Assembly: GCF_001614315.2 (NCBI RefSeq) | Contig: NZ_LVEG02000002.1 | Coordinates: forward strand, 1-64,000 | Reading direction: 5' to 3' | DNA length: 64,000 nucleotides | Origin: Halofilum ochraceum | GTDB taxonomy: Bacteria; Pseudomonadota; Gammaproteobacteria; XJ16; Halofilaceae | Shown: positions 36,826-39,014 of the stretch, in pieces | How the letters are laid out: each line of letters starts with the position of its first letter | Position numbering within the stretch: the stretch's first letter is position 1 | Notes under the pieces: model-generated | The model's input: only the letters and a program-made list of their open reading frames with translations | Databases searched by the model: none | What the model was told of the DNA's origin: nothing | Position numbers and translations under genes: made by a program

Positions 36826-37404
36826 ATGCTCGAATTCGTTGTCGGGATCGTCCTGTTCTTTGGTATTCACTCGATCGCGATCGTGGTGCCGGATTGGCGC
36901 AACGACATGGTGCGACGCATGGGTGCGGTGCCGTGGAAGGCGATCTACGGTCTGATCTCCATCGTCGGAATTGTGCTGCTGATCAAGGGCTACGGCGATC
37001 TCCGCTGGGCCTCGACCGCGCTGTATTCGCCGCCCGGCTGGCTGCGCCACGCAGGCATGCTTTTGCTCCTCCCGGTGTTCCCGCTGCTGCTGGCCACCTA
37101 CTTGCCGGGGCGAATCAGCGCGCGCGCGAAACACCCCATGCTGCTGGCGGTAAAGATCTGGGCGCTTGCGCACCTGCTGATGAACGGTCGGGCAGTGGAC
37201 CTCGCGCTTTTCGGAGCGTTCCTTGCCTGGGCGGTGGCGGATCGTATCGCCGCCAAGCGGCGCTCATCGCGGCCGGCGTCAGCGCCGGCCCTGCCTGCGA
37301 CGGCGGTCAATGACGCGGTGGTGGTCGTGGGCGGCCTCGCGATCTACGTCGCGTTCGTGCTCTGGCTGCATACCTGGCTGATTGGCGTGCCGGTGGTCGC
37401 CTGA
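36826..37404 (+). CDS. NnrU family membrane protein
   Basis: 192 residues with five or six TM segments. FFGIHSIAIVVPDWRNDM, RISARAKHPMLLAVKIWALAHLLMNG and a conserved ADR mark the NnrU family, first linked to nitrite/NO reduction in Rhodobacter; many members occur without denitrification genes and have heme-related or unknown roles. Lone gene, with a GAGAGGCG site before ATG 36826. Confidence 0.87.
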   Translation: MLEFVVGIVLFFGIHSIAIVVPDWRNDMVRRMGAVPWKAIYGLISIVGIVLLIKGYGDLRWASTALYSPPGWLRHAGMLLLLPVFPLLLATYLPGRISARAKHPMLLAVKIWALAHLLMNGRAVDLALFGAFLAWAVADRIAAKRRSSRPASAPALPATAVNDAVVVVGGLAIYVAFVLWLHTWLIGVPVVA

Positions 37405-37444
37405 CGCGCTGGGTGGGGGCTGACCGGTCCAGTGCTTTACGCTT

Positions 37445-37590
37445 GGGTGCTTCCGCTATATATTGAGACCGTCCTGACCGCGCGCCCAGGATATGGGCCG
37501 CACGAGGGGAACACCGGTGAGAATCCGGGGCTGTCGCGCAACGGTATGACGGGGATGCAGTCCTCCGTCGAGCCCGAATACCTCGCAGGA
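37445..37590 (+). promoter_or_regulatory. cobalamin riboswitch
   Basis: The conserved core is easily read: GAGGGGAACACCGGTGAGAA then TCCGGGGCTGTCGCGCAACG (37504-37543), and 3' GAGCCCGAATACCTCGCAG (37570-37588), matching the AGGGAA...GGTG..AATCC...GC.G...CGCAAC and the AGyC.GAATACC elements of the B12 aptamer. A GC-rich hairpin follows (37592-37613). The gene downstream is not a known B12 gene. Confidence 0.88.
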
Positions 37591-37591
37591 T

Positions 37592-37613
37592 CGGCCCGCC
37601 TCTGGCGGGGCCG
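37592..37613 (+). promoter_or_regulatory. expression-platform hairpin after the B12 aptamer
   Basis: CGGCCCGCC / GGCGGGGCCG with TCT loop, beginning right after the aptamer. There is no U run behind it, so control may be translational or through an alternative fold. Confidence 0.5.
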
Positions 37614-37745
37614 CCCGGAACCTTCGCGTCAAAGGTCCGAGGCCGAGATGCACGCAGGATTCGCCCTCACCGGGCATCACGAATCCCTTCTCCCGTCCTC
37701 GCAACGCGTTGGTTCCTCCTTGAGCCGGTTCGATCTGGAGGAGCC

Positions 37746-38144
37746 ATGTCCGAATTCCCGCACACCCGCACGCAATCCGTAACCGATGGCCAGGCGGCGC
37801 TGCGGGCCGCTGGTGTGTCCGTGATGCCCGCGTCGACGCCTGCCGGCGACCGTCCCGTCGGCTTCGATGCCGTCGAATCAGGCGATGATCCTGTGACCGA
37901 CTGGCTGCTGCAGCGCGAAGACCTCGATACGGTCGAATTCAGCGTACTGTTCGCCATCCACAAGCTGCGTGCCAGGCCTCGCACGGCCGGCTGGATCGGG
38001 CACGCCGATCTGCGCCGATGCACCGGCCTCGCTCCCGAGGCCCTCGGGCGTGCGCTGACGGTATTGCGTCACCGCGGCCTTATCTGGATGGCCCCGCACC
38101 CCGTGAAGACGGGCTGCGCGCGCTATCTCCTTCTCGTGAATTGA
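37746..38144 (+). CDS. small winged-helix protein downstream of the cobalamin riboswitch
   Basis: 132 residues, not recognised as a named family. Residues 1-50 are low in structure; 50-130 look like a winged helix: DTVEFSVLFAIHKLRARPRT, IGHADLRRCTGLAPEALGRA, LTVLRHRGLIWMAPHP, RYLLLVN. ATG at 37746 follows GGAGGAGC. It is the first gene after the cobalamin riboswitch, 155 bases from the aptamer, so its expression may answer to B12. It could be a DNA-binding regulator; targets unknown. YceH, another winged-helix protein, follows after 186 bases. Confidence 0.6.
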   Translation: MSEFPHTRTQSVTDGQAALRAAGVSVMPASTPAGDRPVGFDAVESGDDPVTDWLLQREDLDTVEFSVLFAIHKLRARPRTAGWIGHADLRRCTGLAPEALGRALTVLRHRGLIWMAPHPVKTGCARYLLLVN

Positions 38145-38330
38145 AGCGCAGCGGGTGTGGGTCCGGGACTGCAGGGCACGCTTGCTTTGCCGCGCGCTCG
38201 CCGAAGCGCGGGGAGTTGTTCACCGCCGAGGGGCATAGGCCAGACGGCCCCCTTCAAGGCGGACGGTGAGCGGCAGGCGATCGAGCGTATACTGACGCAG
38301 TTCGGCGGCACGAAAACGGGGGCGGCATTG

Positions 38331-39014
38331 ATGGAACGGGATCTCACTGCGGTCGAAATCCGCGTCCTGGGGTGTCTGCTGGAGAAGGAGGCGACCACGC
38401 CGGACCAGTATCCCCTGTCGATCAATGGCCTGGTCACCGCCGCGAACCAGAAGAGCAATCGCGATCCGGTCCTGGCACTCCCCGAGGCCGACGTGCGCGA
38501 GGCCGTGACCGGGCTGACCCGACGCGGCCTTGTGCGTCAGCCGTCGTCGTATGGTGGGCGGGTGAGCAAGTTCGAGCATCGTCTCGGGCGCGGCCCGGGC
38601 AGCGCCCTGAATGCGCCGCCGGAGCAGCTCGCGGTGCTCGCGCTGTTGTTCCTGCGCGGGCCGCAGACGCCGGGCGAACTGCGCAGCCGTGCGCAGCGTA
38701 TGGTCACGGTCGAGGGCATTGATGCCGTTGAGTCGACGCTGCAGACCCTGGCGGCGCGCGAAGAAGGCGCGCTGGTGGAGTGCCTGCCGCGCGAGCCAGG
38801 CAAGCGCGAAGCGCGCTGGACGCACCGCTTCGGTAGTGATCATGCGGAACCGGCCCCGGAGGCAGCGACCGCTGCCGGCGTCAACGCTGGAGACGATGCG
38901 CCGGTGAGGGGCGCGGACCAGGGCGATCTGGAACAGCGCGTCGCCCGGCTCGAGCGCGTCGTCGCCGACCTGTACGACCGCCTCGGCGACGATGGATCCC
39001 CGGGATCCGGTTAA
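38331..39014 (+). CDS. yceH: YceH family (DUF480) protein
   Basis: About 227 residues. LTAVEIRVLGCLLEKEATTP, DQYPLSINGLVTAANQKSNR, RRGLVRQPSSYGGRVSKFEHR and LLFLRGPQTPGELRSRAQRM are unmistakable for DUF480, a tandem winged-helix family of unknown function. The C-terminus has a coiled-coil-like DLEQRVARLERVVADLYDRL. ATG at 38331; the upstream open frame is not conserved-looking. Confidence 0.93.
   Translation: MERDLTAVEIRVLGCLLEKEATTPDQYPLSINGLVTAANQKSNRDPVLALPEADVREAVTGLTRRGLVRQPSSYGGRVSKFEHRLGRGPGSALNAPPEQLAVLALLFLRGPQTPGELRSRAQRMVTVEGIDAVESTLQTLAAREEGALVECLPREPGKREARWTHRFGSDHAEPAPEAATAAGVNAGDDAPVRGADQGDLEQRVARLERVVADLYDRLGDDGSPGSG

Follow-up and report, generated by a model that had tools for sequence, protein, structure and literature searches.

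Positions 37458-37603 (+) of the window (the whole 64-kb stretch of DNA that was analyzed) carry a cobalamin riboswitch aptamer, and the gene directly behind its leader encodes a small protein with a predicted winged-helix domain. The reading that best accommodates the comparisons, to which we give a probability of roughly 70%, is that the leader is an OFF switch of nrdAB (class Ia ribonucleotide reductase) descent, now driving a winged-helix regulator. The link between the RNA and the gene is well supported by genome comparison, since switch and gene stay together in three species.

A short-form cobalamin aptamer

The sole Rfam match in the 64-kb window is RF00174 at 37458-37603 (+), with 35.8 bits and E 2e-5 (cmscan). 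It spans the full model (1-189) and contains both stretches, 37504-37546 and 37570-37588, where an earlier note made from the sequence had placed a B12 aptamer core; the Infernal comparison proposed there as a check came out in its favor, above the gathering score of 31.5 bits. The conserved core with P3, P5, and P6 is present and has covariation support. In the model alignment, 53 consensus positions of the P7-P12 region shrink to 5 nt, and the peripheral P8-P12 extension is lacking, as in class II (short) aptamers; its absence accounts for the modest RF00174 score of this class-II-like form. R1, a covariance model of this RNA, scores the window leader at 113 bits, a value to be read with the window itself and both congeners being among the sequences from which R1 was built.

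The same genome (3.64 Mb, 35 contigs) holds three other cobalamin switches, at 114-121 bits, two of which lie upstream of a btuB-type receptor and of cobN. The third, a full-length switch (L001 / L010:8070-9803, G000:C11; 120.9 bits), precedes a GcvT/DmdA-like protein, an unusual target whose best NCBIfam match is DMSP demethylase at 263 bits, below the cut-off of 410. Around the switch in the window, as had been observed from the sequence, no B12 gene is recognized among the immediate neighbors (M24 peptidase, NnrU, YceH, and SnoaL-like).

Leader architecture

A candidate sigma-70-like promoter (TTTACG, 17 nt, TATATT; 37436-37464, +) overlaps the start of the aptamer and is the only promoter-like match within 37350-38450, where shuffles lead one to expect 0.1. 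The CTATATATTG of the promoter region is identical across all three genomes of the genus (G000, that of the window, and its two congeners, G001 and G002). Several nrdA leaders have similar promoter-like motifs in the corresponding position, and the motif aligns across many related leaders.

Covariation supports the principal helices. For P3, whose 5' strand GAGG (37504-37507, +) pairs with CCUC at 37581-37584, Aquisalimonas leaders show an A-U/C-G double change; the P5 hairpin (CCGG/CCGG; 37514-37528, +), with loop L5 UGAGAAU at 37518-37524, has a C-G to U-A double change in two leaders (L061 and L032). The P13 hairpin ACCUU(CGCGUCA)AAGGU (37620-37636, +) covaries in 16 leaders, with 100% of cells paired and changes on both sides in four of its five pairs. 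Its loop, L13, is the presumed kissing partner of L5; the hairpin covaries strongly, yet no single loop-loop register covaries clearly. The L5 region CCGGUGAG matches 37666-37673 CUCACCGG over 8 nt; this match was considered for the kissing loop and rejected, as the congeners do not keep it.

Directly 5' of the ATG, a good Shine-Dalgarno region, GGAGGAGCC (37737-37745, +), forms the sequestered strand of a helix with the anti-Shine-Dalgarno GGUUCCUCC (37711-37719, +). This helix appears in the MFE fold of the isolated leader, and relatives keep it through compensating changes (GGUUCCUCC/GGAGGAGCC, GGCUUCUCC/GGAGAAGCC, GUUUCCC/GGGAAAC, and CCUCUUUU/AAAAGAGG), the two strands varying in step in most leaders compared. 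The excess over the control is only moderate (19.2 vs 14.8, sd 2.9), and the helix is partly to be expected because Shine-Dalgarno sequences resemble one another. For the hand-made structure as a whole, 96.7% of cells are paired in the 16 leaders, 10 of 21 pairs show changes on both sides, and the covariation score is 0.368, as against 0.165 in shuffles and 0.100 at most when slid. By MFE folding, the complete leader does no better than shuffles (z 0.32). An antisequestor pairing the CGCG of L13 with a CGCG just 5' of the anti-Shine-Dalgarno is kept in close leaders only and is not claimed because it is absent from more distant ones.

Origin of the leader

Scanned against about 85,000 species genomes, the core sequence matched 76 loci, and a scan of viral contigs with the same sequence gave no match. 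Among gammaproteobacteria, a near-identical core precedes nrdA or, in halophiles, a small gene that we call family b; the core of the window is identical to those of L034, L045, L047, and L086, and aptamer, P13 hairpin, and Shine-Dalgarno helix align across most of the related gammaproteobacterial leaders. R1 finds matches in 43 of 369 genomes of the class. Of 27 R1 loci read by eye, 21 have an NrdA-type ATP-cone N-terminus behind them; at many, NrdB follows at 3-5 kb (G203, G346, G146, G258, and G240, for example). By its R1 matches and identical cores, the leader in the window is of the kind found upstream of nrdA. Behind the window switch, nrdAB is absent, with the winged-helix gene in its stead, and NrdB was not found in the whole genome.

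Because the same RNA mostly precedes nrdA and the genus is without NrdAB, the leader probably descends from an nrdAB switch whose earlier target was lost. We infer this order of events (nrdA first) from the majority of present targets, the leader tree being too short to fix the direction of target change. Deletion of nrdAB between the switch and an old neighbor is not supported, since the winged-helix gene was found neither in 17 genomes with related leaders nor in the 366 other genomes of the class. The earlier note had proposed either that the switch controls a regulator or that it has lost the target it once had; comparison favors a merger of both, in which the lost target would be nrdAB and not btuB or cbtAB. 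It looks as though an nrdAB switch was left without its target and picked up a small gene, perhaps on two occasions.

Family b comprises proteins of about 140 aa behind the same B12 switch cassette, unrelated to the winged-helix protein, in Vreelandella, Halovibrio, Halospina, Aquisalimonas, and a MAG labeled Alcanivorax (L036:5926-6360 (-), L059:6450-6884, L057:7386-7820, L091:67-492 (-), L052:3020-3436 (-), and L083:2849-3277 (-)). These have no Pfam match, and their model is confident (core pLDDT about 90) and matches no PDB fold. A search of the 369 class genomes, run without a positive control, did not find the family.

Ribonucleotide reductases of the genus

All three genomes of the genus encode NrdJ-type large subunits (in the window's genome, 597 bits to TIGR02504, cut-off 400), and neither NrdB nor NrdD was found in any of them. 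From these searches, B12-dependent NrdJ appears to be the sole reductase of the genus, with no class I or class III enzyme. One congener alone has a second NrdJ-type reductase (G001:C17:22566-24041, L096; 548 bits to TIGR02504). In the family-b genomes tested, a single large subunit with a similar score was found and NrdB was missing; NrdB and two large subunits are both present in the nrdA-type genomes G375 and G376. The association of small-gene targets with loss of NrdB is suggestive only, because 42% of the class genomes are without NrdB anyway.

The regions upstream of nrdJ in G000, G001, and G002 (L093, L095, and L094) share a conserved DnaA-box-like TTATCCACAGG and two NrdR-box-like palindromes; comparison of the three revealed no shared new operator attributable to the winged-helix protein.

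The winged-helix protein

The first gene behind the switch is, as previously described, an ORF of 132 residues (37746-38144, +). Between the window and G001, its winged-helix domain has dN 0.075 and dS 0.702 (dN/dS about 0.11), which marks a selected protein and no chance ORF; by this measure the gene is under purifying selection.

Its description as a winged helix stands on Pfam matches of congeners and on the predicted fold; the window protein taken alone is borderline (HTH_Crp_2, E 0.17), with no Pfam match at curated level. The best Pfam matches among the three homologs are MarR_2 (6.6e-5, in a congener) and HTH_Crp_2 (1.1e-4). The AlphaFold model has the order H-H-E-H-H-E-E, with pLDDT about 90 over the C-terminal two thirds and a disordered N-terminus; the nearest PDB entries by Foldseek are mostly MarR- and ArsR-type regulators, none below E 0.001. 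Fold prediction and weak profile matches together point to a winged-helix DNA-binding domain, such as MarR-type transcription factors have; the model contains only the winged-helix core after the disordered N-terminus, without the MarR dimerization helices. A search for an operator or regulon of the protein found none.

From the model we infer that the protein would control other genes as a transcription factor, giving the relay that the earlier note had suggested. Winged helices also act as protein- or RNA-binding modules, and the link between switch and protein could be real with the protein no transcription factor at all, binding NrdJ, the replication machinery, or RNA in B12 shortage. The disorder of residues 8-46 in the model would suit such a role, as would the halophile cassette, where the protein driven by the same switch has a confident model without a match among known folds. 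Most of the best structural neighbors, however, are DNA-binding MarR/ArsR-type regulators, and MarR_2 and Crp-type HTH matches occur among the homologs; we regard a role other than transcription factor as unlikely, while deserving of real weight.

Conservation of the switch-gene unit

Homologs of the winged-helix protein occur in three genomes only, all of the window's genus, in searches of 56 genomes and then of 369 of the class. The gene was not found in the 366 other class genomes, and 17 genomes with related leaders (before nrdA, family b, or other targets) gave weak, partial matches only. The comparison thus has one genus and three species as its base, the two congeners being MAGs labeled Ectothiorhodospiraceae. 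In both of these the aptamer lies directly upstream of the gene; the L006 leader scores 33.6 bits, above gathering, and the L007 leader 29.3 bits, below the gathering score of 31.5 (E 3.6e-4), with an identical core.

The neighborhood differs from genome to genome. In the window, the switch and the winged-helix gene come after nnrU and are followed by yceH and snoaL; in G001 they come after a YceH-like and then a SnoaL-like gene; and in G002 a carbonic-anhydrase-like gene lies upstream of the switch. The G001 site behind nnrU, equivalent to that of the window, has a 5'-truncated switch with no winged-helix gene behind it, and the intact unit is found at a distance of 10 kb. The truncated copy (L160, G001:C22:25123-25261) scores 45.9 bits with R1 and no longer has the promoter or the 5' parts of P3 and P5. 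It is also mutated, and a rubrerythrin/VIT-like gene (read by eye) now follows it, making it a natural riboswitch relic.

By these comparisons, which bear out the expectation that the small protein would be conserved behind the aptamer in relatives, the unit of switch and winged-helix gene is retained through a change of position. Its conservation in all three genomes while the neighborhood changes marks the small gene as the true current target. The switch might instead be a decaying nrdAB relic that lies by chance upstream of an unrelated gene and has no present role: its RF00174 score is below those of the other switches in the genome, a truly decayed copy exists in G001, and the expected target, nrdAB, is absent. 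Such decay is hard to reconcile with leader blocks identical in all three species although the proteins are as low as 35-38% identical, with intact leaders that all keep promoter-like site, aptamer, P13, and Shine-Dalgarno helix, or with the retention of the unit when its position shifts; we consider a functionless leftover quite improbable. That the meaningful target is yceH or another neighbor, with the small gene a passenger, is very improbable indeed: yceH (DUF480; 38331-39014, +; PF04337 1.4e-55), correctly recognized earlier as the next gene, begins 186 bp further on along the same strand, and no terminator-like site separates the two genes, but the YceH-like and SnoaL-like genes of G001 come before the switch, no YceH was seen next to that of G002, and only the small gene is constant across genomes, so that yceH is no conserved target and probably lies outside the unit.

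Proposed mechanism and implications

The preferred reading, that of an OFF switch driving a winged-helix regulator, can be put in mechanistic terms. Positions 37458-37745 would form a short-form cobalamin riboswitch acting at translation of the 132-aa gene. By analogy with known switches (PMC11260477, PMC545781), a bound corrinoid would let L5 and L13 dock, whereupon the anti-Shine-Dalgarno at 37711-37719 would pair with 37737-37745 and hide the translation start; when B12 is scarce, the Shine-Dalgarno would be free and the winged-helix protein made. The genus would have lost nrdAB, leaving dNTP supply to rest on NrdJ, and the retained leader would now drive a protein that is most likely a DNA-binding regulator of the response to B12 shortage. 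A regulator switched on by such shortage is plausible because deoxynucleotide synthesis in these cells seems to depend wholly on B12. Candidate targets, at this stage guesses, include B12 uptake and synthesis, nrdJ, and replication.

A broader proposal, which we advance tentatively and at somewhat less than even odds, is that lineages losing NrdAB kept the B12 sensor RNA and rewired it more than once to small proteins that signal shortage of B12, and hence of dNTPs: a winged-helix transcription factor here and a protein of unmatched fold in halophiles, each part of a two-step relay protecting NrdJ-only cells. In these organisms, running short of B12 should halt DNA synthesis directly. The halophile parallel (same leader, no NrdB where tested, different small protein) makes the idea testable, as it predicts that both small proteins are made only in B12 shortage and then affect survival. 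The leader also appears to be a traceable case of a riboswitch that outlives its target and gets a new one, a step seldom caught as RNA regulation evolves. Should the protein be a regulator, a single transcription factor under RNA control would convey B12 status to many genes.

Relation to known systems

In the open-licence literature, we found no description of an nrdA-type switch kept after loss of nrdAB upstream of a lone winged-helix gene; the ingredients have precedents. The ppe2 switch of M. tuberculosis is a short class-II cobalamin riboswitch that acts at translation (PMC11260477), and the leader in the window resembles such forms in its aptamer core without P8-P12, GGAA after P3, L5, P13/L13, and masking of the Shine-Dalgarno; it differs from class-II examples in targeting a lone winged-helix gene.

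B12 is known to turn off B12-independent isozymes, and a cobalamin switch lies upstream of nrdDG in delta-proteobacteria (PMC545781). As summarized in PMC4991794 (citing Borovok 2006), nrdABS of Streptomyces is under a B12 riboswitch, and the operon includes the AraC-like regulator nrdS. The logic is the same here, and R1-related leaders precede nrdA in gammaproteobacteria; unlike those systems, the window switch has no reductase behind it, the genomes are NrdJ-only, and the small protein is not AraC-like as nrdS is. For algal metE, it has been proposed that a B12-independent enzyme was lost following prolonged repression by B12 (PMC8123684); the same scenario would fit the loss of nrdAB.

Links between B12-sensing RNA and regulators are known for PocR and EutV in Listeria/Enterococcus (PMC9943018, PMC4991794), and there, as proposed here, a B12 riboswitch works through a regulatory protein. 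Those systems use antisense RNA or interplay with the RNA-binding EutV, whereas the arrangement in the window would be simple control in cis, acting on the mRNA of the regulator itself.
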